DNA of 10,862 nt from Candidatus Methylomirabilis sp. Lineage in GTDB: Bacteria > DYJV01. Positions 1-10,862 of the stretch are shown one piece after another. Made by a program: the position numbers and the translations under genes. The stretch spans positions 1 to 10,862 of the forward strand of contig DYJV01000012.1 in NCBI GenBank assembly GCA_020722945.1, read 5' to 3'. The notes beneath the pieces are model-generated. The model had not been told where the DNA came from and made no database searches. It saw only the letters and a list, made by a program, of their open reading frames with translations. Position 1 is the first letter of the stretch. Each line of letters begins with the position of its first letter.

Positions 1-86
1 GCATGAAGGGAGAAGTTTACTTCGGAAAATTGCAAACATTTATTGACATTATCAGAAAATGTGGTTTATATATTTTAAAAATTTAA
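1..86 (+). CDS. Possible 3' end of an upstream gene (partial)
   Basis: The frame containing the ATG at 3 is open from the left edge to a TAA at 84-86 and encodes about 27 residues with a FIDIIRKCGLY segment near the end. I do not recognise the protein. The same frame reopens right after the stop (87-269), so this could be a real gene end, part of a gene broken by a stop, or chance in AT-rich DNA. A promoter-like sequence lies inside it, which weakens the coding reading. Confidence 0.2.
   Translation, partial: MKGEVYFGKLQTFIDIIRKCGLYILKI
43..72 (+). promoter_or_regulatory. Candidate sigma70 promoter upstream of the his run
   Basis: A perfect TTGACA at 43-48 is followed, after an 18-base spacer, by TATATA at 67-72 (or TTATAT at 66-71 with a 17-base spacer). 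Transcription would start near 80 and give hisD a leader of about 258 nt. No run of His codons that would mark a classical his attenuator peptide is visible in that leader. In DNA this AT-rich, -10-like matches are common, so the perfect -35 is the main support. Confidence 0.35.
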
Positions 87-269
87 TTGATTATTCAAAT
101 TTTAAATAAAATAAAAATTTTTAGATTTGGGAGTAAAGGAAGTTTTCGATTTTTAGCGGAAATATTAGAGTTGGGTGCTCCCCTTTTACACAAATTGAAG
201 CTGAAATTTAAAAAAAAGCTCACATCTATTGAGGTTAAAGAAAGAGAGGGTAATAGAGTCCATTTATGA
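87..269 (+). CDS. Doubtful 60-residue basic ORF in the hisD leader
   Basis: The ORF starts with TTG immediately after the TAA at 84-86, has no ribosome binding site, and ends at 269. The product would be strongly basic, with a KLKLKFKKK stretch (residues about 37-45) and a charged tail. I recognise no family. It shares its reading frame with the open stretch at 3-86, so it may be the downstream half of a broken gene, or it may simply be untranslated leader of the his run. I would not call it a gene without homologues. Confidence 0.2.
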   Translation: MIIQILNKIKIFRFGSKGSFRFLAEILELGAPLLHKLKLKFKKKLTSIEVKEREGNRVHL

Positions 270-287
270 AATCTATTTAATCAAGAG

Positions 288-329
288 GATATAAACTTTT
301 AATTGATTTTTTCTCTTAAATTTTATATC
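288..329 (+). promoter_or_regulatory. Inverted repeat and -10-like box ahead of hisD
   Basis: GATATAAA (288-295) and TTTATATC (322-329) form a perfect 8-base inverted repeat with a 26-base gap, ending 8 bases before the hisD ATG. AAGAG (283-287) can instead pair with CTCTT (313-317), which would be mutually exclusive with full pairing of the first hairpin. The left arm contains a TATAAA that could be a -10 box (290-295), but no good -35 lies 17 bases upstream. It could be an operator, a leader structure, or chance AT symmetry. Confidence 0.25.
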
Positions 330-337
330 AGACAGAA

Positions 338-1633
338 ATGATTAAAATTGTAAAATATAGTGACCCAGAGAGCACCAAATTTATTCAGGATATAGTATCA
401 AGGGGCGGTATCAATTTTGAAAGATATTTTGAGAGTGTTTCCGAAATAATCAAAAATATCAAAACTCACAGAGATACAGCTCTTGTCAATTACAGCAGAC
501 AATTTGACAATTTTGACCTCAATAGCAAAAACTACTTTTTTACACCTGAAGATTTCAAAGAAGCTTACAACTCTCTATCACCCCATATACGATCAATTCT
601 TGACAATGCTGCAAGGAGAATAGAAAATTTTCACTCCAATCAAAAAGAGAGAAGCTGGTTTACATACGAGGAGAATGGTTCTATACTTGGTCAAAAGTTC
701 ACTCCTCTTGAATCTGTTGCCCTTTATGTGCCGGGTGGCAAAGCACTATACCCTTCGACAGTTCTTATGACAGGGATACCTGCAAAAATTGCAGGGGTTG
801 AGAATATTTTTATCACCTCACCTATATTTGATTTTGAAAAAGGGAAAGCAGTTCTTGCAGCAGCTCACATTGTTGGAGCCAAAAAGCTCTACAAAATTGG
901 GGGTGCTCAAGCAGTTGCAGCAGTTACATTTGGCACAGATTGGATAAAAAAAGTTGACAAGATAGTTGGTCCCGGCAACATATATGTTACAGTCGCTAAA
1001 AAGCTTCTCTTTGGAAATATTGACATAGATATGATTGCTGGACCAAGTGAAATACTTATAATTGCAGATAATACAGCCAATGCTGAACATATAGTTTTTG
1101 ATATGTTTAGTCAGGCCGAACATGACGAGCTTGCAAGTTCAATTTTGATTACAACATCTGAAAAGCTTGCCTTTGATGTTAGCAAAAAGATAGAGGAGTA
1201 TTCATTGTCAGCACAAAGGAGAGAGATCCTCCAAAAATCTCTCTCAAATAATGGATTGATTCTAATAGTAGACACTCTTGAAAATGCTGTAAATATATCA
1301 AATATGATTGCTCCCGAGCACCTTGAAGTCATTACAGAAGCACCTTTTAATATCTTACCACAGATAAAAAATGCAGGTGCAATATTTTTAGGACCACATT
1401 CACCTGAACCTATAGGTGATTATATGGCAGGACCAAATCATGTCCTCCCTACATCAGGGACAGCAAGGTTCTTCTCCCCCCTCGGAGTATACGATTTTTG
1501 TAAAAGGAGTAGTGTAATAGCTTTCTCAAAAAGAGGGTTTGATATTCTAAAAGAGAGTGTTTCAGATTTTGCTATATTAGAAGGTCTCCAAGCCCATTCA
1601 GATTCAATAAAAATAAGAAAAGATGAGGTTTAA
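338..1633 (+). CDS. hisD: Histidinol dehydrogenase
   Basis: Cytoplasmic zinc enzyme that oxidises L-histidinol to L-histidine in two NAD-dependent steps, the last steps of histidine synthesis. At 431 residues it has the usual full length. The family's zinc and catalytic residues are all visible: Gln259 and His262 in SQAEHDE, Glu327/His328 in APEHLE, Asp361 in GDYMAGPNHV, and His420 near the C-terminus. Other hallmarks are VPGGKALYPS (131-140), GGAQAVAAVTFGT (188-200), VGPGNIYVT (210-218) and IAGPSEILI (233-241). The ATG at 338 fits the family N-terminus, but its ribosome binding site is weak (CAGACAG just upstream). It leads the run, and hisB begins on the base after its stop. Identification is secure. 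Confidence 0.97.
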   Translation: MIKIVKYSDPESTKFIQDIVSRGGINFERYFESVSEIIKNIKTHRDTALVNYSRQFDNFDLNSKNYFFTPEDFKEAYNSLSPHIRSILDNAARRIENFHSNQKERSWFTYEENGSILGQKFTPLESVALYVPGGKALYPSTVLMTGIPAKIAGVENIFITSPIFDFEKGKAVLAAAHIVGAKKLYKIGGAQAVAAVTFGTDWIKKVDKIVGPGNIYVTVAKKLLFGNIDIDMIAGPSEILIIADNTANAEHIVFDMFSQAEHDELASSILITTSEKLAFDVSKKIEEYSLSAQRREILQKSLSNNGLILIVDTLENAVNISNMIAPEHLEVITEAPFNILPQIKNAGAIFLGPHSPEPIGDYMAGPNHVLPTSGTARFFSPLGVYDFCKRSSVIAFSKRGFDILKESVSDFAILEGLQAHSDSIKIRKDEV

Positions 1634-2215
1634 ATGAGAACATCCGAAATTTTTAGACAGACAAAGGAAACTTCTATCTCTGCCAAATTAATTATTAATC
1701 CTCAAAATAGTGAATACCAGATAGATACCACAATAGGTTTTCTCAACCATATGCTTGAGCTTTTTGCAAAACATGGGAATTTTAATCTTTATATAAGTGG
1801 CAAGGGTGATACCAATGTTGATTTTCATCACATTGTTGAGGATATAGGAATTGTGCTTGGACAACTTTTTTTTAAAGCACTCAACGATTTTAAAGGAATA
1901 AAACGATACGGTAGCAAAACTATCCCTATGGACGACGCTTTAAGTAGTGTTACTATCGATATATCAAACAGACCTTACCTTGTCTATAATGTAAATTTCC
2001 CAAAAGAGCGAGTAGGAGATTTTGATGTTGAGCTTTTTGAAGAGTTTTTTAATGCTTTTTCAAATAATCTAAGATGCAATCTCCACATAAAAAACCATTA
2101 CGGTAAAAATTCTCACCACATTATAGAATCTATATTCAAAGCTTTTGGATACGCATTAAGTGAAGCAGTTTCTATTTCGGGTGACCAAATTTTATCAACA
2201 AAAGGGACATTATAA
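1634..2215 (+). CDS. hisB: Imidazoleglycerol-phosphate dehydratase
   Basis: Converts imidazole glycerol phosphate to imidazole acetol phosphate, using two Mn ions in a 24-mer in the known family. The 193 residues cover only the dehydratase domain; there is no histidinol-phosphatase fusion as in E. coli. Metal-binding repeats are visible as GFLNHMLELFAKHG (35-48), DFHHIVED (63-70) and NSHHIIESIFKA (159-170), with PMDDAL (98-103), RPYLV (113-117) and the typical end STKG (188-191). Two positions differ from the usual consensus: FLDHML reads FLNHML (Asn38) and DDHH reads DFHH (Phe64); the His and Glu ligands themselves are kept. The ATG directly follows the hisD stop, with GAGG in the end of hisD as a ribosome binding site. 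Identification is secure. Confidence 0.96.
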   Translation: MRTSEIFRQTKETSISAKLIINPQNSEYQIDTTIGFLNHMLELFAKHGNFNLYISGKGDTNVDFHHIVEDIGIVLGQLFFKALNDFKGIKRYGSKTIPMDDALSSVTIDISNRPYLVYNVNFPKERVGDFDVELFEEFFNAFSNNLRCNLHIKNHYGKNSHHIIESIFKAFGYALSEAVSISGDQILSTKGTL

Positions 2216-2217
2216 TT

Positions 2218-2832
2218 ATGCAGAAAATTGTCATTATAGATTACGGTATGGGCAATCTCAAAAGCGTGGGTAAAGCGGTAGAGAAAGCCGGAGCCAAACC
2301 TATAATCTCATCTTCACCTGAAGATATAGTGAGTGCTGACAAGGTTATACTACCCGGAGTAGGAGCGTTTAGGGATTGTATATACAATCTTACCCGACAT
2401 GGATTTGACACTGCAATATTAGATTTTACAAAAACAGGTAAATATCTACTTGGAATCTGCCTCGGAATGCATGTCCTATTTGAAAAAAGTTATGAGTTTG
2501 GAGAGTATTCGGGATTATCTCTAATAAAAGGTAATGTCATCAAATTTGAAAATATTGGCAGGCTGCCTATACCTCATATGGGTTGGAATCAGGTCAAAAC
2601 ATCAAAAAAGAGTAAATTGCTCAACAACATTTATGATGATGATTTTTTCTATTTTGCACACTCATATTATGTTTCACCTAAAGAAGATAGCTGCATCATG
2701 ACAGAGACAGACTACGGCATAAAATTTGCTTCTTCTATTAACATCAATAATATTTTTGGGGTTCAGTTTCATCCTGAAAAGAGCCAGAAAAAAGGTATCA
2801 CAATATTGGAAAACTTTATAAAGGAGTTATAA
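2218..2832 (+). CDS. hisH: Imidazole glycerol phosphate synthase, glutaminase subunit
   Basis: Class I glutamine amidotransferase that releases ammonia from glutamine and passes it to HisF in the synthase complex. Its 204 residues match the family length. The N-terminus IVIIDYGMGNLKSV (4-17) is diagnostic, the oxyanion region LPGVGAF is at 45-51, the nucleophile is Cys81 in GICLGM, and the rest of the triad is His185/Glu187 in VQFHPEKS. Residue 85, almost always Gln in this family (GICLGMQ), is His here. The gene starts 2 nt after hisB and its stop overlaps the next start by one base (TAATG). hisA and hisF, the usual next genes, do not follow, so the partner must be encoded elsewhere. Confidence 0.96.
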   Translation: MQKIVIIDYGMGNLKSVGKAVEKAGAKPIISSSPEDIVSADKVILPGVGAFRDCIYNLTRHGFDTAILDFTKTGKYLLGICLGMHVLFEKSYEFGEYSGLSLIKGNVIKFENIGRLPIPHMGWNQVKTSKKSKLLNNIYDDDFFYFAHSYYVSPKEDSCIMTETDYGIKFASSININNIFGVQFHPEKSQKKGITILENFIKEL

Positions 2833-3479
2833 TGAATATTTCTAAAAAGATATTTTTGACTGTTTTAATTCTTATTTTCATCACCTCTTGTGCAGGGAAA
2901 AAAGGTCTCGAAAAACACGATGTAGTTACAATCCACAAACCAGCATCAGTATTAGTAGTTCCTTTCATCAAAATTACAAATGATAACATTGACAAGGTCA
3001 ATTGCAAAGTTAAAGACAAACTTATTAACTGCACCTACAAAGATGACAAGTTCAAATTGATAGGTTTACAGCTTGCCGATAAATTTTATTTCTCATTACA
3101 AAATAGGACAGATTATAAACCTATATCTATAAGCAGTGTTGAAAGTGTCTTCAACCAAAATATCGAAAAAATAAATATATCTGACATAGTTGAAAAATTT
3201 AAAATAGACTACATCATAGAGGGTTACATCTACAAGTTTAAAGAGCGCCAGGGGAGTGAGTATTCTGTCAAAGAAGCGGCAACTGTTCATTTTGTTGTTG
3301 TTTTGAGGAATCCTATTACCGGGGAATCTTTGTGGAGCAAGGAGTATTATGAGCAACAGGAGGAGTTGAGTAACAACCTTCTCAATGTTTTTAATTTTTT
3401 CAAAAGAAAAGGTAAGTGGCTTACAGCTCTTGAGCTTTCAGAACAAGCAATAGAAAAAATAGTTAATGAACTACCTTAA
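2832..3479 (+). CDS. Outer-membrane lipoprotein, CsgG/LpoB-like style
   Basis: A 215-residue predicted lipoprotein. The N-terminus has a short basic start, a hydrophobic stretch (about 7-16) and a lipobox ending ITSC, so Cys20 would be lipidated. Ala follows the Cys rather than Asp, which favours the outer membrane. The mature part has VLVVPF (40-45), DYIIEGYIYKFKERQG (126-141), a VRN-like strand followed by PITGESLWSKEY (161-172), and KGKWLTALELSEQA (193-206). This recalls the CsgG/LpoB-type fold (strand ending in PF, then DYII-G) and a family of uncharacterised lipoproteins common in deltaproteobacteria-like genomes. Function is unknown. It overlaps hisH by 1 nt and the Maf gene by 14 nt, so translation is probably coupled at both ends. 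Confidence 0.8.
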   Translation: MNISKKIFLTVLILIFITSCAGKKGLEKHDVVTIHKPASVLVVPFIKITNDNIDKVNCKVKDKLINCTYKDDKFKLIGLQLADKFYFSLQNRTDYKPISISSVESVFNQNIEKINISDIVEKFKIDYIIEGYIYKFKERQGSEYSVKEAATVHFVVVLRNPITGESLWSKEYYEQQEELSNNLLNVFNFFKRKGKWLTALELSEQAIEKIVNELP

Positions 3480-4068
3480 AGATATATTCTTTATTTTGGC
3501 TTCAAGTTCTCCAAGAAGAGTAGAATTTTTAAGAAACCTTGAATTAAATTTTAAAACTATTAAATCATCTTTTGACGAAGAGACTTTCTCTGCTGACGGG
3601 ATGCATCCTCAAGATTTTGTTATTGAAGTTTCGCACTCTAAAATTAAAGACATTGCAGCAAATTATCACAATACACTAATAGCAGGTTTTGATACCATAG
3701 TTTACAATGATGGCTCCATTCTTGGCAAACCTGCAAACAGAGAAGATGCACAAAGGACACTTAAATTGCTATCAGGTAAAGAGCATAAGGTTTTTACAGG
3801 TTATACATTGATGGATAAATCTCGTAATTTTACTCTCCAAAGGGCTGTAGAGACATCAGTTCAATTTAAAGAGCTTAAAGATTACGAGATAGAGTGGTAT
3901 ACTAATACCGAAGAGCCTTTTGATAAGGCTGGTTCTTATGCTGTGCAAGGATTAGGTGCATTTATGGTGAAAAATATACATGGTTCCTTTACAAATGTTG
4001 TAGGATTACCACTTACAGAATTTCTTGAAGATTTGTATCTTTACAAAAAAATTGTAGATGAGCATTAA
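3466..4068 (+). CDS. maf: Maf-family nucleoside triphosphate pyrophosphatase
   Basis: Predicted cytoplasmic pyrophosphatase that hydrolyses non-canonical or excess nucleotides (dTTP/UTP-type activity in the YhdE branch) to the monophosphate and PPi. At 200 residues it has the usual size. Family motifs in order: ILASSSPRR (10-18), GFDTIV with the catalytic Asp (Asp76), GKP (87-89), GKEHKVFTG (104-112), and KAGSYAVQGLGAF (154-166) followed by IHGSFTNVVGLPL (171-183). The usual ADT is GFDT here, keeping Asp and Thr. The ATG at 3466 lies inside the end of the lipoprotein gene (14-nt overlap) and puts the SSSPRR motif at its normal distance from the N-terminus. The stop overlaps the next gene by 11 nt. 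Which nucleotide it prefers cannot be told from sequence alone. Confidence 0.94.
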   Translation: MNYLKDIFFILASSSPRRVEFLRNLELNFKTIKSSFDEETFSADGMHPQDFVIEVSHSKIKDIAANYHNTLIAGFDTIVYNDGSILGKPANREDAQRTLKLLSGKEHKVFTGYTLMDKSRNFTLQRAVETSVQFKELKDYEIEWYTNTEEPFDKAGSYAVQGLGAFMVKNIHGSFTNVVGLPLTEFLEDLYLYKKIVDEH

Positions 4069-4756
4069 GGACAACATAACCAGAGTAACTAACCAAATAT
4101 CTGATACTGCAGCAAAATGTGGTAGAGACCCAAAAGATATAAAATTGATTGCTGTATCAAAAACTTTCCCTGCGGATAGAGTATTAGAGGCTTGGAATTG
4201 TGGGGTAGATAATTTTGGTGAAAATTATGTCCAAGATTTTCTTTTAAAATATGACACATTGAATCACCTTCAAATAAAGTGGCATTTTATAGGTCATTTA
4301 CAGACAAACAAAATTAAATTTATATACGATAAGATAACTCTCCTGCATACTCTTGACTCAATCAAACTTGCAGAGAGACTCAATAGTTATCTTACTGAGA
4401 AAAATTTTTTTCTTGATGCCCTAATCCAGATTAATCTTGCAAAGGAGGTCAGTAAATCGGGATTTTTTGAAGATGAAATTGAAGATTCTCTTTCAAAATT
4501 ATCATCTTTTAAAAATTTATTTATAAAAGGATTTATGACTATACCACCCTATTTCGAAGATGGTGAGAAGGTAAGACCATACTTTGCAAAGATGAGAAGA
4601 TTGTTAGATTCTTTCTCATCCTACAACTGTTCAAATATAAAACTCTCTGAGCTATCAATGGGGATGTCCAACGATTTTGATATTGCTATTGAGGAGGGTG
4701 CAACTTTTATAAGAGTGGGGACAAATATATTTGGAGATAGAAGCTGCAAAATATAG
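4058..4756 (+). CDS. yggS: YggS-family pyridoxal phosphate homeostasis protein
   Basis: Binds PLP on a TIM barrel of the alanine-racemase fold and buffers vitamin B6 and amino-acid metabolism; no catalytic reaction is established for the family. The 232 residues match the normal length. The PLP lysine is Lys35 in LIAVSKT (30-36). Other family blocks are FGENYVQD (53-60), WHFIGHLQTNK (75-85), GFMTIPP (158-164) and SMGMSNDFDIAIEEG (200-214), followed by RVGTNIFG (219-226). The ATG overlaps the end of the Maf gene by 11 nt, so coupled translation is likely. In many bacteria this gene sits with division and envelope genes; here it precedes a membrane coiled-coil gene and a TolC-like gene. Confidence 0.95.
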   Translation: MSIKDNITRVTNQISDTAAKCGRDPKDIKLIAVSKTFPADRVLEAWNCGVDNFGENYVQDFLLKYDTLNHLQIKWHFIGHLQTNKIKFIYDKITLLHTLDSIKLAERLNSYLTEKNFFLDALIQINLAKEVSKSGFFEDEIEDSLSKLSSFKNLFIKGFMTIPPYFEDGEKVRPYFAKMRRLLDSFSSYNCSNIKLSELSMGMSNDFDIAIEEGATFIRVGTNIFGDRSCKI

Positions 4757-4776
4757 TAAATAAAATTTAAACATAC

Positions 4777-4784
4777 AGGGGGAG
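4777..4784 (+). promoter_or_regulatory. Strong ribosome binding site for the coiled-coil protein
   Basis: AGGGGGAG sits 2 bases before the ATG at 4787, with its purine core 5-9 bases upstream. It is among the strongest Shine-Dalgarno matches in the window and fixes the start of the next gene, which otherwise has a 30-base gap from yggS. Confidence 0.7.
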
Positions 4785-4786
4785 AT

Positions 4787-5110
4787 ATGCCTTCAATATC
4801 TTTACTATTATCTATTTTTCTTATTTTTTTCATTGTAATCCTACTTATGTATATAGTCTACCTTAACAGTGAATTTAAAAGAATCATGAATTTATACTCA
4901 GAGGCAATACAAGAGCAGGAGAAGATGGAGAAGAAATTTCTCGAATACAATGAGAAAACAGAGGCTTTCTATAAAGAGATAGCAGATCTTAAAGTTGATA
5001 ACAACAACTTAAATCAGGATAAAGAGCTGCTCAAAAGAAAACTTGAAGTTTCAGTAAAAACTATCGAGGCACTCAAAGCTAAAGTTGCTTCTTTGGAGGA
5101 TATCTATTAA
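4787..5110 (+). CDS. Membrane-anchored coiled-coil protein, function unknown
   Basis: A 107-residue protein I do not recognise. One hydrophobic helix (about residues 5-26) is followed by a long charged region (about 30-105) rich in Glu, Lys, Leu and Asn with heptad-like spacing, so it is very likely a coiled coil on one side of the inner membrane. The size and single-anchor-plus-coil layout are like FtsB/DivIC or ZapB-style division proteins, but no diagnostic motif of those families is visible. It starts 30 nt after yggS behind a strong AGGGGGAG. Its stop TAA (5108-5110) is interlocked with the start of the TolC-like gene, so the two are probably made together. It could be an adaptor for that efflux protein or a division factor; this is inference. 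Confidence 0.75.
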   Translation: MPSISLLLSIFLIFFIVILLMYIVYLNSEFKRIMNLYSEAIQEQEKMEKKFLEYNEKTEAFYKEIADLKVDNNNLNQDKELLKRKLEVSVKTIEALKAKVASLEDIY

Positions 5111-6566
5111 ACTTTTAAAAGGATTTATCAATCTATTGGTAATTTCTCTCTTATTTGTAAAATGTGTTGATGCTGAAGATTTAAAAGAGATATCTCTTAA
5201 CGAATTTATCTCATCAGTTATTCAGAAAAATCTCAACATAAAGAGTTACTCACTTAATAAAGATATATCAAGTTTGGATATTGAGAAGTTTTTAAGTTAT
5301 TTTGATAGTGGCTTGACCATTTCTGTTGGTAAAGATTTCAAAAAAGATTTTACAGGAAGCATACTTGCAAGTCAGAATACCGATTATTTAATATCCCATA
5401 CAACTAATCTTGATGTCAGTATTGCCAAGAAATTTGTAACAGGGGCAGAACTATCTCTCTCCTTCCTCAATTCAAAAAATAAAGAAACATACGATTACTC
5501 AAATTTGAGTGCTCCATACAATACTGAAGTTCTGCTAAACTTTAAACAACCTATCTTAAAAGGTTTTGGAATTGAGATAAATAAATCTGACATAAATAAA
5601 GCTCAGAATACCCTCTCCAAAACAGACTCTGCTGTTGAAGATTTCATCAATACTGAGATATTGAATGCAGTTTACCAATATTTTGACCTGCTTTACTCTT
5701 ATAAATATCTTGAGTTGCAAGAGGAGCTACTCCAGCTTGCAAAAAATACCCACAAAATAAATGAAAAAAATTTTTCAGTAGGTTTAATGCCTAAATCAGC
5801 TCTTACAGAGTCAAAATCAGAAGTTGCAAAGAGGGAAGAGCTTGTCATAGAAGCAAAGCAAACTCTATTAAATAATATTGACAAATTGAAAACATTCATT
5901 GACGATATAAATAGTAACTATCTTCTCAAACCTATCACTGAAACTTTTGACATTACAGAACCAGAACCCCTTGATAATTCAGTAGATAAAGCATTGAAAA
6001 ATAGAGCTGAAATAAAAAAGCTCAATATCGATATTCAAAATGCTGAGATAGATATAAATGTCGCCAAGAACAACCTGCTTCCATCATTGACTCTTAATGC
6101 GTATACAGGAGTTACAGGAAGGGGTGATAATTATGATGACAGTATTGATAATCTTATAAGTAACGATTATCATAACACAGGTATTTACCTTGAACTAAAA
6201 TACCCATTTGGAAATAGAGAGGCAAAATCAACATCTAAAAGGAGTGAGGTAATACTCAACCAACTGAAATTAAATATGAAAGATCTCAAAAATCAAATAA
6301 CTTCCGAAGTAAAGAAGAGTAATAGGAATCTTGTCTTCTTAATCAAAAAGATTAATGCTTACAAATTATCAGTAGATGCAGCATACGAAAAGCTTAAAAT
6401 AGAAGATAAAAAATACCGCAATGGTTTGTCAGATCCATTCAAAGTATTCTCATATCAGGTTGACTACATAACAGAAAAAGTAAATTACCTTAAAGCAAAT
6501 GTAGATTACTCAAAAGAGGTTATTAATTTTAAAAAGGTGGTGGGTGATAGGCTATTTAACCAATAG
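5085..6566 (+). CDS. TolC-family outer-membrane efflux protein
   Basis: Predicted outer-membrane channel subunit of the OEP/TolC family, which trimerises into a beta-barrel with a periplasmic helical tunnel and exports small molecules or proteins with an inner-membrane pump. The length (493 aa) fits. After a signal sequence, the mature protein has the two-fold repeat of long amphipathic helices: AVYQYFDLLYSYKYLELQEE (about 196-215) in the first half, and in the second half NRAEIKKLNIDIQNAEIDIN (about 306-325) followed by ARNN-like LLPSLTLNAY. The start is uncertain. TTG at 5085 is the only upstream standard start but has no ribosome binding site. GGAGG at 5095-5099 lies 6 nt before ATT (5106), which would give a clean signal peptide (KLLKGFINLLVISLLFV, cleavage after CVDA). 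No pump or adaptor gene is adjacent. Confidence 0.9.
   Translation: MLLWRISIKLLKGFINLLVISLLFVKCVDAEDLKEISLNEFISSVIQKNLNIKSYSLNKDISSLDIEKFLSYFDSGLTISVGKDFKKDFTGSILASQNTDYLISHTTNLDVSIAKKFVTGAELSLSFLNSKNKETYDYSNLSAPYNTEVLLNFKQPILKGFGIEINKSDINKAQNTLSKTDSAVEDFINTEILNAVYQYFDLLYSYKYLELQEELLQLAKNTHKINEKNFSVGLMPKSALTESKSEVAKREELVIEAKQTLLNNIDKLKTFIDDINSNYLLKPITETFDITEPEPLDNSVDKALKNRAEIKKLNIDIQNAEIDINVAKNNLLPSLTLNAYTGVTGRGDNYDDSIDNLISNDYHNTGIYLELKYPFGNREAKSTSKRSEVILNQLKLNMKDLKNQITSEVKKSNRNLVFLIKKINAYKLSVDAAYEKLKIEDKKYRNGLSDPFKVFSYQVDYITEKVNYLKANVDYSKEVINFKKVVGDRLFNQ
5095..5108 (+). promoter_or_regulatory. GGAGG ribosome binding site pointing to an ATT start
   Basis: GGAGG at 5095-5099 is placed 6 nt ahead of ATT at 5106-5108, which shares its last T with the TAA stop of the preceding gene (ATTAA). 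This arrangement is what one expects of a coupled gene start, except that the codon is ATT rather than ATG. No ATG, GTG or TTG lies at a suitable distance. The next in-frame TTG (5136) would remove the basic end of the signal peptide. Confidence 0.5.
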
Positions 6567-6680
6567 CTGATAAATTCACTCCATTCTATCAAAATTTACT
6601 TTTATAGTGTGATATTAAAAGGGAAAATTTTATTCAAGGCAGCTTTTTTGTTACTGATACAACAATAATTTGTAGTCTAT

Positions 6681-6686
6681 AGGGGG
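6681..6686 (+). promoter_or_regulatory. Ribosome binding site deciding a GTG start
   Basis: AGGGGG at 6681-6686 lies 5 bases before GTG at 6692. It supports translation from a non-ATG codon that could otherwise be doubted. Confidence 0.6.
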
Positions 6687-6691
6687 CAGTA

Positions 6692-6931
6692 GTGGATATA
6701 TTTACAGGTATTTTTGGTGGAACATCAGTAATTTTTATATTGCTGGGGTTTTTAGTCACTATTTTATGGGTTATTCTGCCCTTTGCCATCTTCGGGATCA
6801 AACCAAGGCTCAACAGCATAACCAAAGAGTTAGCATTACTTAGAGAAGTAAATAATTCTATTGGTAAAGATATTCAACAGACAAACAAATTGCTAAAAGA
6901 TATAGCTGATACAATTAGAGATAAAAGTTAA
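6692..6931 (+). CDS. Small membrane protein with coiled-coil tail, unknown function
   Basis: A 79-residue protein read from GTG with a strong upstream AGGGGG. Residues about 11-36 are one long hydrophobic segment (VIFILLGFLVTILWVILPF) and residues about 40-75 are a charged, helix-forming tail (ITKELALLREVNN, then QQTNKLLKDIADTIRDK) likely to form a coiled coil. I recognise no family. It lies 125 nt after the TolC-like gene. That gap has no clear terminator, so it may be the last gene of the run or a separate unit. The layout repeats that of the 107-residue protein at 4787, in smaller form. Confidence 0.7.
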   Translation: MDIFTGIFGGTSVIFILLGFLVTILWVILPFAIFGIKPRLNSITKELALLREVNNSIGKDIQQTNKLLKDIADTIRDKS

Positions 6932-7083
6932 TAAAATAGTAAATGTAATTATTTTTCACAACTCAAGAGTAATACCCCAATAAAAATTAATTGAAAATTG
7001 AGAATTTCAATAAACAGTAACTAATAATCACTATCTACTATTTTTACTTTCTGCTTCAGCCCTGCACCTTCAGCATATTTTCA

Positions 7084-7129
7084 TTCCCCTCTGCGGAGGG
7101 GTGGCAGGCAAAGCCTGACGGGGTGGTAG
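7084..7129. repeat. GC-rich double-hairpin intergenic repeat
   Basis: Two hairpins side by side: CCCCTC (7086-7091) with GAGGGG (7096-7101) around a TGCG loop, then CAGGC (7105-7109) with GCCTG (7113-7117) around AAA, followed by ACGGGGTGGT. It stands out strongly from the AT-rich surroundings. The pattern CCCCTC-GAGGGGTGGC-GACGGGGTGGT recalls a dispersed intergenic repeat type seen in many bacterial genomes. Only one clear copy is present here, so dispersal is not shown by this window. It may work as a structured RNA end or terminator with the T-rich DNA that follows. Confidence 0.65.
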
Positions 7130-7198
7130 TTCTTTAGTTTTTATCTTCTTTTTTTTATTTTTTAGTTTTTCCCATCAGCCTTAAGTCTGGTAGTTATA

Positions 7199-7260
7199 GT
7201 AGCATCGAAACCTGGTGGCTGAGCAATGTCGAAGCCCCTCACAATGTTAGTCAAAATGAC
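7199..7260. repeat. Second intergenic repeat block (TGAGC..GTCGAAG type)
   Basis: The block carries TGAGCAATGTCGAAG (7220-7234) flanked by GGCT (7217-7220) and AGCC (7233-7236), a small hairpin. The core resembles the TGAGCG-AGTCGAAG signature common in dispersed intergenic repeats. A looser relative, TGAGTGCAGTGAAG, is at 7455-7468. Its composition differs from the flanks. Copy number elsewhere is unknown. Confidence 0.45.
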
Positions 7261-7394
7261 AAGAGTAAATTTATCATTATAATTCAAATTTTGAAGTTTA
7301 AAATCATATTTTTTTCAAATTTATCGATAGTATTTTTTCAATATTAATCTAAACTCTTTTGAGTAAAAATAATATCATATTTATCTAAATTATC

Positions 7395-7424
7395 TTGACA
7401 ATTTTCGTTATCTTTTGTTAAGCA
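7395..7424 (+). promoter_or_regulatory. Weak candidate promoter for the DUF364-fusion pair
   Basis: A perfect TTGACA (7395-7400) is followed at 17-18 bases by TTAAGC/TAAGCA, a poor -10. It is the best -35 in the region upstream of 7523 and would leave a leader of about 90 nt. Weak evidence. Confidence 0.2.
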
Positions 7425-7482
7425 TATAGCAAATAACTATTTACTAAATAATTTTGAGTGCAGTGAAGGTGAAGCTCTGATA

Positions 7483-7502
7483 AATTTTATTAAATTAAAA
7501 TT
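7483..7502. promoter_or_regulatory. AT palindrome just upstream of the DUF364 gene
   Basis: AATTTTA (7483-7489) and TAAAATT (7496-7502) form a perfect 7-base inverted repeat with a 6-base gap, ending 20 bases before the ATG. Its position suits an operator or a translation-control hairpin. It does not match a Fur box or any operator I can name, and chance AT symmetry is possible. Confidence 0.2.
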
Positions 7503-7522
7503 ATAGGTTAAATACATTAAAA

Positions 7523-8326
7523 ATGATTGTAGAAAAGACATTTGATTTATTAAGAGAGAAATATCATTCAAGATTTGAAGAGCTTACCATATCTGACATT
7601 AGAGTTGGAGTTCATCTCACATGCGTTAGACTCTCTGATGGTAGCGTAGGTTCAGCAGGCACCGTATACAACACTGAGATAAAAAGTGATAAACTTTCTC
7701 GTGATTTTGGAGATTTTACACCCACAAAATTCAAGGGTAGAAAAATTCCTGATCTACTCACTATTAATAAACCTTCCAACATAATTCAGACAATTAAAAT
7801 AGCAGTCCTCAATGCAATTTCGTCAGCCATCATCTCAGAGGGTAACTACAAAATAATTTACAACAAAGATCCTATCGATCTTATTGATTTATCTTCAAAG
7901 AAAACTATTACTATAGTTGGGGCATTCCAATCATATATCCACAAAATTTCAGCAACTGACAACCAACTTTACATTCTTGAGCTAAACTCAAATACCCTCA
8001 CCAATGAACAGAAAAAGTATTATATTCCAGCTGACAGATACAATGAGGTTATCCCTCTTTCAGACATCGTAATAATTACAGGTCTGACTCTTGTTAACAA
8101 TACAATAGATGGGTTACTATCTGCAATCTCACCATACACAAAAGTAGTAGTTACAGGACCATCAAGCAATCTAATCCCTGATATCTTATTTCAAAATAAA
8201 GTAAATATTATTGGTGCGGCAAAAATATTTGATCCTGATACCCTTTTTACTATTGCAAGTGAAGCAGGGACTGGTTTTCACCTATTTAAGTATTGTGCAG
8301 AAAAGATATGTATAACAGATGAATAA
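7523..8326 (+). CDS. DUF4213/DUF364 putative chelatase-like protein
   Basis: A 267-residue cytoplasmic protein with the two-part architecture of the family described as putative heavy-metal chelatases. The N-terminal DUF4213-like part has VGVHLTCVRLSDGSVG (28-43) and AVLNAIS (94-100). The C-terminal Rossmann-like DUF364 part has TIVGAF (130-135), DIVIITGLTLVNNTIDGLL (181-199) and GPSSNLIPDILF (212-223), with GAAKIFDPDTL (231-241) and a GFHLFKY end. No enzymatic reaction is established for the family; its members often lie near metal, molybdenum or iron uptake genes. The ATG at 7523 has only a distant AGG as ribosome binding site. Its end overlaps the next gene by 8 nt (ATGAATAA), so the two products are probably made in a fixed ratio and act together. 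Confidence 0.87.
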   Translation: MIVEKTFDLLREKYHSRFEELTISDIRVGVHLTCVRLSDGSVGSAGTVYNTEIKSDKLSRDFGDFTPTKFKGRKIPDLLTINKPSNIIQTIKIAVLNAISSAIISEGNYKIIYNKDPIDLIDLSSKKTITIVGAFQSYIHKISATDNQLYILELNSNTLTNEQKKYYIPADRYNEVIPLSDIVIITGLTLVNNTIDGLLSAISPYTKVVVTGPSSNLIPDILFQNKVNIIGAAKIFDPDTLFTIASEAGTGFHLFKYCAEKICITDE

Positions 8327-10019
8327 AAACTACCAAATTGATGATATCTGGATCAAAGCCTCCATCATAGGCACAATTTGGGCTGCTTCCGAGATTGTGC
8401 TCGGGAGTTTTTTACACAATCTCAAGATCCCTTTTAGCTCAAATATCCTTGCTGGAATAGGGATAGTTATACTGATCTCGACAAGTCATATATGGCAAGA
8501 TAAAGGTTTGTTATGGCGTTCTGGACTCATCTGTGCTCTTATGAAGACAATGTCCCCAAGTGCTATAATATTTGGACCAATGATAGCAATATTTTGTCAA
8601 GCTATGCTACTTGAGCTTTCAACCAAAGTTTTCGGTAAAACTATTATCGGGTTTATATTAGGTGCAATATTTGCAATGACTTGGAACCTATTTCAAAAAA
8701 TTATCAACTTCATTATTTTATACGGGTTTAATATTGTCAATATTTACAAAGATTTACTCAATCTCGCACAGAAAGAGTTAAACATAAATTTTGATATTGT
8801 CTGGCTTCCTATTGTATTTTTGATATTAGTTTACTCTATTTTTGGATTTATAGCTTCAATAGTCGGAATAAAAGTTGGTCAAAATATAGTAAAACAACCA
8901 TCTACCACCAAATTCATCACCCCCAACAACTACAAATCAAAACCTCAAAATACACAAAAGTTTGATTACTCAATAATCTGGCTTATCTTAGATGTTATAC
9001 TAATAATCACATCACTTCTCCTGCTTAATTTTACCTCTTGGGCAGTCTGGAGCATAGTAATTCTCCTTACAATTCTGACATGGAAGATACGCTATAAAAA
9101 AGAGTTTCAGAAATTGGCAAAACCTCAATTTTGGATATATTTTGTTCTTATTACTATGGCTACTGCATTTGTGATAAGCAAGGTGCAGTCAGACAACCTT
9201 ATAAATGGTATGATAGCAGGGATACAGATGAATTTTAGAGCTGCAGTAATTATTCTCGGGTTCTCAGTTTTGGGCAGAGAACTCTACAACCCAAAAATAA
9301 AAGATTTTTTTATGAGAACATCATTTAAACAATTACCATTGGCACTTGAACTTTCATTTCAAAGTTTACCGATGATGATAGCAAATATCCCTGAATTTAA
9401 AGTAATAGCAAAAAATCCTATATCTGTATTTTCTGAGATGATATCACAAATAGAATCAAGGCTTTTCGAAATAAAAAGAGAGCAAGGAAAACATGTATTC
9501 ATTATTTCAGGTGATATCGGAGAGGGGAAAACTACGCATATAGAGAAAATAGTAGAGAGATTAAATGCCCAAAATATATCTGTCGGTGGTTTTATTTCAG
9601 TAAGAGTAGTAGATAATGGGGAAACTATCGGTTATGATATCATAGATCTCTCCACAAAAACCAGAAAAATATTTTTAAGGAAAAATGGGAATGAAAATAT
9701 GGAAAATATAGGTATTTTTAAAATTTTTCCTGATGGTATGAATTTTGGGTTAGATATTTTAGATGTATCAAAAAACCTGAAAAATAAAATTGTAGTTATA
9801 GATGAAATTGGGAGATTTGAGATTGACGATAAAGTTTGGGCTAAAAGTTTGGATAACCTCATAAAGAGTCAGAAAAATCATCTCCTGATTGCTGTTAGAG
9901 ATATTTTTATTAAAGATGTTATAGCAAAATGGAGTATCAAAAATTACTCTATTTTCAAAGTATCAGACCTTAACTCTTCAAATATTATAGATTCAATCCT
10001 TCATTTGCAGGATAAATAA
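8319..10019 (+). CDS. Membrane (ECF-like) protein fused to a THEP1-type NTPase
   Basis: A 566-residue fusion. Residues about 1-190 hold several hydrophobic helices with MSPSAIIFGPMIAIFCQA (78-95) and FGKTIIGFILGAIFAMTW (105-122), resembling S-type substrate-binding components of ECF transporters. Residues about 217-375 add further helices and a block with REL (320-322) and FKQLPLALELSFQSLPMMI (336-354), resembling an ECF T component. Residues about 388-566 form a complete THEP1/nucleoside-triphosphatase domain: Walker A GDIGEGKTT (398-406), SVGGFISVRV (421-430) with GYDIIDL (438-444), and Walker B VVIDEIGRFE (492-501). There is no ABC signature motif. The gene is coupled to the DUF364 gene by an 8-nt overlap. 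The NTPase call is firm; the S/T reading and a transport role are inference. Confidence 0.85.
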   Translation: MNKNYQIDDIWIKASIIGTIWAASEIVLGSFLHNLKIPFSSNILAGIGIVILISTSHIWQDKGLLWRSGLICALMKTMSPSAIIFGPMIAIFCQAMLLELSTKVFGKTIIGFILGAIFAMTWNLFQKIINFIILYGFNIVNIYKDLLNLAQKELNINFDIVWLPIVFLILVYSIFGFIASIVGIKVGQNIVKQPSTTKFITPNNYKSKPQNTQKFDYSIIWLILDVILIITSLLLLNFTSWAVWSIVILLTILTWKIRYKKEFQKLAKPQFWIYFVLITMATAFVISKVQSDNLINGMIAGIQMNFRAAVIILGFSVLGRELYNPKIKDFFMRTSFKQLPLALELSFQSLPMMIANIPEFKVIAKNPISVFSEMISQIESRLFEIKREQGKHVFIISGDIGEGKTTHIEKIVERLNAQNISVGGFISVRVVDNGETIGYDIIDLSTKTRKIFLRKNGNENMENIGIFKIFPDGMNFGLDILDVSKNLKNKIVVIDEIGRFEIDDKVWAKSLDNLIKSQKNHLLIAVRDIFIKDVIAKWSIKNYSIFKVSDLNSSNIIDSILHLQDK

Positions 10020-10039
10020 GAAATATAATCAAAATCACC

Positions 10040-10067
10040 AAATTAGAATTCCCTTCTAAACTAATTT
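10040..10067 (+). terminator. Possible weak AT-rich terminator hairpin
   Basis: Downstream of the fusion gene, TTAGAA (10043-10048) pairs with TTCTAA (10054-10059) around TTCCC; alternatively AAATTAG (10040-10046) pairs with CTAATTT (10061-10067). The stems are AT-rich and no strong T-run follows, so termination efficiency is doubtful. Confidence 0.25.
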
Positions 10068-10229
10068 AAATTTAAGAAAAAATGTTTATATTTACCTACT
10101 TTAAGAGATAAAATATTATCTACAAAGTAAAGTTGTAATTTTATCATCCAAGATTATTTTCCACTAAAAATAAAGAGAGAGATTCTAATTAATGAACTTT
10201 TCTAATAAAGCTATCTTACCAAATGAAAA

Positions 10230-10268
10230 ATGTTGCTTAAAAAATGTGGTCAACTATTCTAACATATT
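10230..10268 (+). repeat. Solo right-end remnant of the same IS
   Basis: These 39 bases match 10584-10622 at 32 of 39 positions without gaps, both running from ATGTTGCTT to ACATATT. The second copy is the right end of the short element downstream, so this one is an orphan right end of a related, more degraded copy. The inner 24 bases (10244-10267) also match the inverted left end at 10461-10484 at 22 of 24 positions. Confidence 0.65.
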
Positions 10269-10460
10269 GGATAAAAAGCTTGCAGCAGAGATTGGAATAA
10301 TTTTCAAAATCTTTAAATTACCCAATATCTGTAAATAATTTTAAAATAATTTGACATTTTAAAACCAAAATAATAAGCAAATGATTAAATCTTTAATCAG
10401 AATTAGAGTTTAAAGCAGAATTGATAAACAAATTATGTTCACTCCTTACAAAAATGGATA

Positions 10461-10622
10461 ATATGTCAGAATAGTTGACCCCATAAATTGAAAAAATATG
10501 GGGGAAAAAGATGAAAAGAAAGGACAGTATTGGATTAAAAGAGAGTGTATTAAAAAAAGTATCTACCTATTGGCAGACAGGAAATGTTGCTTTAAAAATG
10601 GGGTAAACTTTCTTGACATATT
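10461..10622 (+). mobile_element. Internally deleted IS / MITE with transposase start
   Basis: The left end (10461-10484, containing TGTCAGAATAGTTGACCCC) and the right end (10599-10622, containing GGGGTAAACTTTCTTGACA) are imperfect inverted repeats matching at 20 of 24 positions, with TG...CA tips. Between them is a 31-codon ORF (10511-10606) with a good ribosome binding site (GGGGGAAAAAG). It starts MKRKDSIGLKESVLKKV, like the first helix of IS3-type OrfA transposases, then stops in the right end. This is what an IS that lost nearly all of its transposase would look like. It could not move without a transposase supplied in trans. The exact IS family is not certain. Confidence 0.6.
10511..10606 (+). 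pseudogene. Remnant of a transposase OrfA start
   Basis: 31 codons from ATG to TAA behind GGGGGAAAAAG. The first ~25 residues (basic start, LKESVLKKV, WQTGNVAL) resemble the beginning of helix-turn-helix OrfA proteins of IS3-like elements. The last residues (KMG) are read from the IS right-end repeat, as expected if a deletion joined the gene start to the element's end. Not functional as a transposase. Confidence 0.45.
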
Positions 10623-10628
10623 CTGATT

Positions 10629-10772
10629 GATTTGTCACAAGTAATTAATTATATGAAAGATTATAAAATGGAAATCGGATTGCTTATTAATTTTGGATCC
10701 AAAAATTTGGAATTTAAAAGGGTTATGAAACAAATTCATAGTCCGTCAGATAATTATTTTAATCATACTTAA
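10629..10772 (+). pseudogene. C-terminal fragment of a GxxExxY-family protein
   Basis: About 47 residues ending at TAA (10770-10772). VINYMKDYKMEIGLLINFGS (residues 5-24 of the fragment) followed by KNLEFKRVM matches the conserved C-terminal block of GxxExxY proteins (NYLK..G.EIGLLINFGS..LE.KR). The N-terminal part with the GxxExxY motif is missing. An in-frame TGA at 10614-10616 inside the IS right end closes the frame upstream, and the homology begins about 10 bases from the IS end. The gene therefore seems to have lost its 5' part through the IS insertion or a linked deletion. The function of the family is unsettled; it belongs to the nuclease-like PD-(D/E)XK-related group by common annotation. 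Confidence 0.65.
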
Positions 10773-10779
10773 AGAAATT

Positions 10780-10862
10780 ATGGAAACAACAAAAATTGCA
10801 TTATTTAAAGGTAAAAAGATTAGAAAATTACTTCATAACAACGAGTGGTGGTTTTCCGTTGT
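10780..10862 (+). CDS. Start of a Bro-N / phage antirepressor-like gene (partial)
   Basis: An ATG at 10780 opens a frame that runs off the right edge after 27 complete codons. The segment KIALFKGKKIRKLLHNNEWW (residues 5-24) followed by FSV is the typical opening of Bro-N domain proteins annotated as phage antirepressor or DNA-damage-inducible-like (usually IALF-GK-IRR-.-N-EWWFSVVDV). Such proteins are DNA-binding and common in prophages and accessory islands. The ribosome binding site is weak (AAAGA). It starts 7 bases after the GxxExxY fragment. The rest of the protein, and so whether it is intact, cannot be seen. Confidence 0.72.
   Translation, partial: METTKIALFKGKKIRKLLHNNEWWFSV

Follow-up and report, generated by a model that had tools for sequence, protein, structure and literature searches.

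The two overlapping genes described here appear to form a molybdenum/tungsten (Mo/W) acquisition unit built on an ECF-type importer, in which a THEP1 domain would be the NTPase of the S component and a DUF364 protein its soluble partner. We put the probability of this reading at roughly 0.55. The unit has a recognisable domain make-up, the pairing of its two genes is conserved, it has homology to S/T/EcfA operons, and its family has a Mo/W gene context.

The window (the whole stretch of DNA that was analysed) consists of bases 1–10862 of a 45.8 kb contig, C140. The draft genome (G000) is 2.5 Mb in 184 contigs, with a completeness of 98.1% and a contamination of 5.8%, and the absences reported below hinge on the completeness of this draft. 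Loci, genomes and contigs of the survey carry L, G and C numbers.

Organisation of the gene pair

The open reading frames at 7523–8326 (267 aa) and 8319–10019 (566 aa) overlap by exactly 8 nt, as stated in the initial annotation. The features of the pair are as follows.

7406–7431, + strand: weak ModE-box-like element CGTTATCTTTTGTTAAGCATATAGCA, upstream of the pair (13/16 positions; not relied on)
7523–8326, + strand: DUF4213/DUF364 protein, 267 aa, first gene of the pair (PF04016, PF13938, 3npg)
8319–10019, + strand: S-T-THEP1 fusion protein, 566 aa (open reading frame; full-length relatives)
8319–8900, + strand: S-component-like membrane domain, residues 1–194 (family profile A3; S slot in EcfAA-S-T operons)
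8961–9479, + strand: T-component-like domain, residues about 215–387 (hhalign against unfused T proteins)
9498–9998, + strand: THEP1 (NTPase_1) domain, residues 394–560 (PF03266, 2i3b, 1ye8, pLDDT)
9510–9536, + strand: Walker A, GDIGEGKTT (sequence)
9792–9821, + strand: Walker B, VVIDEIGRFE, with the DE pair typical of ASCE NTPases (sequence)

The element at 7406–7431 is the one candidate ModE box upstream of the pair, and its 13 of 16 positions were reached in about 5% of crude shuffles, which is not significant. No Moco or other riboswitch was matched by Rfam in the window at E ≤ 1, nor upstream of 12 relatives at gathering scores. Downstream of the pair, 10180–10862 is non-coding or decayed DNA with possible transposon or GxxExxY-like remnants; past these, an open reading frame with masked bases starts and runs beyond the window.

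The DUF364 protein

The first protein contains both domains of the DUF4213/DUF364 make-up above the Pfam cut-offs, namely PF04016 (E 4e-35, 121 bits against a cut-off of 23) and PF13938, DUF4213 (E 2.4e-10, 41 bits against 23.5), and is therefore a member of that family. It has a relative in the PDB, 3npg (E 2.7e-8). The family is still annotated only as 'putative heavy-metal chelation'. A structure paper of 2010 linked DUF364 neighbourhoods to W, Mo, V and Fe transport genes, and described a pterin/flavin-like pocket (PMC2954201). The window's copy resembles the family member Dhaf4260 (3l5o) in its two-domain organisation and belongs to a family known beside W, Mo, V and Fe transport genes, but it is paired with an S-T-THEP1 fusion and not with an ABC transporter.

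This pairing recurs. A DUF364 gene is found beside an S/THEP1 system not only in the window but also in L006/L007, where it is 60% identical to the window's copy and lies 7 nt ahead of the fusion gene, and in L061, L069 and L155. DUF364 and the THEP1 system thus co-occur in other genomes as well, so that the initial annotation is not refuted on this point. The genome has a second DUF364 gene (L027:14721–16183, contig C49), adjoined by a convergent precorrin-2 C20-methyltransferase-like (cobalamin) gene and the contig end.

The putative S and T domains

Residues 1–390 of the fusion have no match above cut-off in Pfam, and the S-family profile gave no ECF match, nor any other, among PDB sequences, Pfam and NCBIfam. 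AlphaFold2 predictions for the fusion (7 sequences) have a mean pLDDT of 53, with a good THEP1 domain (mostly 71–90) and an unusable membrane part; for the S domain (8 sequences) the mean is 42. On the grounds of homology and operon position, not of structure, we assign residues 1 to about 194 to an S-type component and residues about 215–387 to a T-type component, because unfused homologues sit in EcfAA-S-T operons and the fused T domain aligns with unfused T proteins.

The S family has the motif G..W...E...G..LH....P (profile A3). Its homologues fill the S slot in L060 (EcfAA-S-T), L061 (EcfAA-S-T-THEP1), L062 (THEP1-S-EcfAA-T-TonB receptor), L145 (EcfAA-S-T/THEP1 fusion), L147 (EcfAA fragment-S-T-THEP1) and L160 (S-EcfAA-T-TonB receptor), with genes that mostly overlap; L147 and L160 begin at a contig end. 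The T proteins of L062 and L160 match PF02361 (CbiQ) above cut-off (E 4e-14 and 2.6e-12), and the best matches of the L062 double ATPase are TIGR04521 and TIGR04520 (ECF_ATPase), at E 6e-67 and 2e-66 but below the cut-offs of those models. The fused T domain (A5) aligns with unfused T proteins (A4) over 100 columns (hhalign E 2.7e-5, probability 74%). These results support the S and T reading already suggested for the membrane part. The earlier estimate of about 375 residues of membrane helices was slightly generous: the membrane part is real, but the last strong membrane segment by hydropathy is at residue about 317, giving some 320 residues of helices and about 70 of coupling-like or linker sequence.

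Group I ECF transporters such as CbiMNQO and BioMNY, which consist of S, T (CbiQ/EcfT) and ATPase (EcfA/CbiO) components, share with this system S- and T-type membrane components, and the unfused relatives of the S family occur in EcfAA-S-T operons with a CbiQ-family T. The window's version differs in having S, T and NTPase in one chain, an S family that matches no Pfam or NCBIfam model, THEP1 in place of an ABC-type NTPase, and no CbiQ in the rest of the genome. The fused T domains have neither the R-G coupling motif nor the last helix of canonical T proteins. By ECF standards, therefore, the unit has an S component as judged by homology, a T-like domain lacking the R-G motifs, and no EcfA pair. 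THEP1 is the only NTPase inside it.

The THEP1 domain

The C-terminal domain matches PF03266 (NTPase_1) at residues 394–560 with E 6.6e-23 and 81.8 bits against a cut-off of 23.9, and its Walker A and Walker B DE are intact, which places it in the THEP1 family and agrees with the complete NTPase domain first noted. It matches 2i3b (E 5.4e-7) and 1ye8 (E 5.7e-6) in the PDB. Members of the family are conserved from hyperthermophiles to humans. In completeness, Walker motifs and PDB matches the domain thus resembles THEP1/NTPase_1 proteins (PF03266, COG1618) such as A. aeolicus aq_1292 and human NTPCR; it differs in being fused to an S component, and in relatives it is either fused to one or encoded beside one. 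The P-loop and Walker B DE are retained in the S/T-linked THEP1 domains examined. The Walker B glutamate has a role in aaTHEP1, the DE pair being as in ASCE NTPases, and the structure paper gives no in vivo function for THEP1 and no known partner for the A. aeolicus protein (PMC1079890). The same paper argues against kinase activity, and a role of THEP1 as a trapping kinase was downgraded on this basis (PMC1079890).

THEP1 recurs near the S family. It is close to S in 11/17 loci of the first round and 13/32 of the second, but in 0/40 random loci. The S-T-THEP1 fusion of the window is also present in L002–L006, L008, L058 and L137–L141, while L145 has a T-THEP1 fusion beside S and EcfAA, and L057 has an S-T fusion with a separate THEP1. 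When 33 THEP1 domains are placed in a tree, the label linked or unlinked requires 2 changes, compared to 8.6 in shuffles, and the linked domains are largely apart from eight clustered unlinked ones.

Two sets of operons bear on what THEP1 does. In L061, L062, L145 and L147 one operon encodes both THEP1 and a double EcfA ATPase, and THEP1 is therefore not simply a replacement of EcfAA in origin. In L028, L069, L153, L155, L157 and L158 it accompanies S with no T protein or EcfA nearby, which makes it a more central part of the system than EcfAA-T. Since THEP1 accompanies EcfA in four operons, we read it as an NTPase accessory to the S component; in the fused forms this NTPase may have taken over energisation. 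The initial annotation had THEP1 standing in for the ABC ATPases; this fails as a general rule, given those four operons, but is possible for the fused form, in a genome with no CbiQ and with none of its ten classified ATPases EcfA-like.

Relatives and distribution

A scan of genome contigs found seven full-length or near-full-length relatives of the fusion in Bacteroidota MAGs, with 51–56% identity; the full-length ones in this range are L002–L006 and L008. Fusions of the same layout also occur in the phylum of G111, and this, with the seven Bacteroidota relatives, rules out a chance fusion. Chance adjacency is ruled out too, such neighbours being found in 0/40 random loci and 0/11 THEP1-only loci. 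The membrane-part profile finds split and fused relatives across phyla, and the S-domain profile A3 places the family in 33 of 386 sampled genomes. Among relatives the membrane (S) part is more conserved than the THEP1 part.

The DUF364 and fusion genes are kept together in Bacteroidota, at 60% and about 51% identity respectively, and the fusion is absent from the only other genome of the same order (G001). This patchy distribution, together with the high identity of both genes to Bacteroidota, suggests that the pair moved jointly by horizontal transfer, which argues that it is a functional unit. A search of plasmids with the fusion gave no match; with the unfused T it gave weak matches only, mostly to annotated EcfT proteins.

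Two candidate S-family loci were not confirmed: L067, in which no S open reading frame was found, and L068 (G272), whose context was not recognisable. Several other loci show variant arrangements. L005 and L006 are two diverged fusion copies in one MAG, and DUF364 and Mo-hydroxylase genes are neighbours of only one of them. An S domain and a TonB-dependent receptor are in one open reading frame in two genomes that belong to the same family (L064:6585–9365 and L143:7826–10480); in L064 a signal-peptide-like stretch lies between them, so that an inner- and an outer-membrane protein share one frame. L145:6963–13181 holds two adjoining S/THEP1 gene sets: one of them includes a TonB receptor as well as a short THEP1-like open reading frame, the other the double EcfA and the T-THEP1 fusion. 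In L028:7930–9714 S and THEP1 are separated by a gene for a MobB-like P-loop protein, and genes for 2-oxoacid:ferredoxin oxidoreductase lie downstream. L029:4116–7158 has a T component, a TonB receptor and THEP1 in a row with no S gene visible, the contig ending inside the T gene.

Molybdenum and tungsten genes in the neighbourhood

Genes for Mo/W uptake and use surround members of the S family in many phyla. ModE-type regulators are beside it in L002/L003/L008, L058, L061 and L163, with the ModE domain TIGR00637 matched at E 4e-21 beside L002 and 3e-24 beside L058. Mo-hydroxylases with MocA and/or XdhC are present in L004, L059, L069, L153 and L155, and in L069 the S-THEP1-DUF364 set is inside a Mo-hydroxylase operon. 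L060 has WtpB/WtpC and a ModA/WtpA-type binding protein beside EcfAA-S-T. The most informative relative is L061:1118–7009 (G190:C209), a full operon of DUF364, ModE, TonB receptor, EcfAA, S, T and THEP1 with mostly overlapping genes.

A control of 40 random loci of 17 kb was taken from genomes of the same set. Mo/W neighbours were found in 7/17 first-round and 3/32 second-round S-family loci (p 7e-5 and 0.08), or 10/49 overall, as against 0/40 in the control. Because some of the first-round loci went into the profiles, the second round is the fairer test, and there the Mo signal is only suggestive. The sole such neighbour of the window's own copy is DUF364, the pair being flanked by neither ModE nor a Mo enzyme or TonB gene. 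Most of the distant S-family loci have no Mo context, and these distant members may differ in substrate. The metal link proposed at the outset can nevertheless be narrowed: the ModE, Mo-hydroxylase, MocA, XdhC, WtpBC and DUF364 neighbours make it most probably one to molybdenum/tungsten. TonB receptors lie near the S family in 5/17 and 7/32 loci, and in none of the 40 random loci, which suggests an outer-membrane step in uptake.

Transporters elsewhere in the genome

No CbiQ was found in the genome. It has 44 ABC-type matches; ten ATPases were classified, best as Liv, WtpC, LolD, DrrA-type or nothing, and none of these ten as ECF_ATPase at E 1e-60. Mo-hydroxylase subunit genes are present at L091, WtpA is above cut-off on contig C118, and there are WtpC-like ATPases and a ModE-like gene (L170). 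ModABC/WtpABC systems have neighbourhood themes (ModE, WtpBC) in common with the S family, and this genome has a WtpA, but their periplasmic binding protein, TM permease and ABC ATPase are all absent from the pair.

On C118 (L097:6888–11699) a TonB receptor is divergently arranged with WtpA and a regulator of the HTH-PBP (molybdopterin) type; this receptor falls in one profile family with the S-linked receptors. At L170:3890–12333 (contig C168) the ModE-like regulator is accompanied by a WtpC-like ATPase and a TonB receptor, together with a NitT/TauT-like binding protein and permease; the set may be one more system for an oxyanion or metal.

Proposed function and alternatives

On the basis of these observations we infer the direction of transport, the substrate and the reactions of THEP1 and DUF364, as follows. 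The N-terminal domain, a new S-component family, would capture Mo/W on the periplasmic side, in the form of molybdate, tungstate or a chelate of them. In the middle, a degenerate T component would scaffold, tether and orient S; it would have lost the R-G motif by which canonical T proteins engage EcfA ATPases. At the cytoplasmic mouth, NTP hydrolysis by THEP1, perhaps the only energy source in this organism, would release or hand over the substrate. DUF364 would receive the arriving metal, or act on its ligand, toward molybdenum-cofactor enzymes such as Mo-hydroxylases. Against this, no model of the membrane part was confident, the S family is unmatched in PDB, Pfam and NCBIfam, and the genome already has a WtpA-type Mo/W system, which would make a second route redundant unless specialised. 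The Mo-hydroxylase context could also mirror the substrates of the hydroxylases instead of the metal.

A stronger form of the model, that of the initial annotation, is that THEP1 has truly replaced the ABC ATPases, making the fusion a primary transporter in a single polypeptide, with a RecA-like NTPase to power it. With no CbiQ in a genome that is 98% complete, no EcfA-like protein among the ATPases examined, and six loci where S and THEP1 occur without T or EcfA, THEP1 could indeed be the sole motor here. The missing R-G motif and the conserved Walker B DE, as in ASCE NTPases (PMC1079890), point the same way. Yet THEP1 shares operons with the double EcfA in L061, L062, L145 and L147, so that its ancestral role was not that of EcfA; an ATPase could act in trans, only ten having been classified among the 44 ABC-type matches; and A. 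aeolicus THEP1 has no known partner and a function that is unclear (PMC1079890). We regard this replacement as tentative and rather unlikely, and its specific version, a new primary active Mo/W importer in which RecA-like THEP1 and not an ABC ATPase pair powers S via the degenerate T domain, as marginally more doubtful still.

The other alternatives depart further from the Mo/W importer. The substrate might be an organic compound that goes with Mo enzymes, such as a pterin-type cofactor or a substrate (e.g. purine or nicotinate) of hydroxylases resembling xanthine dehydrogenase, and not a metal. Vitamins are what most known ECF S components carry, larger substrates are favoured by TonB receptors, and L069 adjoins BMP/nucleoside-type ABC genes and an XDH operon; the pterin/flavin-like pocket of DUF364 (PMC2954201) would also suit such a ligand. 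ModE beside members in several lineages, WtpBC beside L060 and the earlier Mo/W/V context of DUF364 point to the metal instead, and L058 and L061 have no hydroxylase genes nearby; we judge an organic substrate improbable. Finally, the proteins might not transport at all, and might form a membrane-anchored maturation or metallochaperone complex for Mo enzymes, with THEP1 acting like MobB- or HypB-type NTPases. S-THEP1-DUF364 sets in Mo-hydroxylase operons with MocA and XdhC (L069, L155), and the MobB-like protein of L028, would fit this; the association of S homologues with complete EcfA-T modules and TonB receptors fits uptake instead, and conservation is higher in the S domain than in THEP1. 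We take maturation as the least probable of the readings considered.

Implications

A search of the open-access literature found no ECF-type system described for molybdenum or tungsten, and the S-THEP1-DUF364 context points to an undescribed route by which cells obtain Mo/W. In the L061 operon an ECF module, THEP1 and DUF364 come together in a single process that can be tested. The TonB receptors suggest that Mo/W also passes through an outer-membrane step, which is not usually assumed. If THEP1 is the motor, this would be a change of engine within a transporter superfamily, and a THEP1-powered importer, if true, would give the conserved THEP1 family its first defined role.
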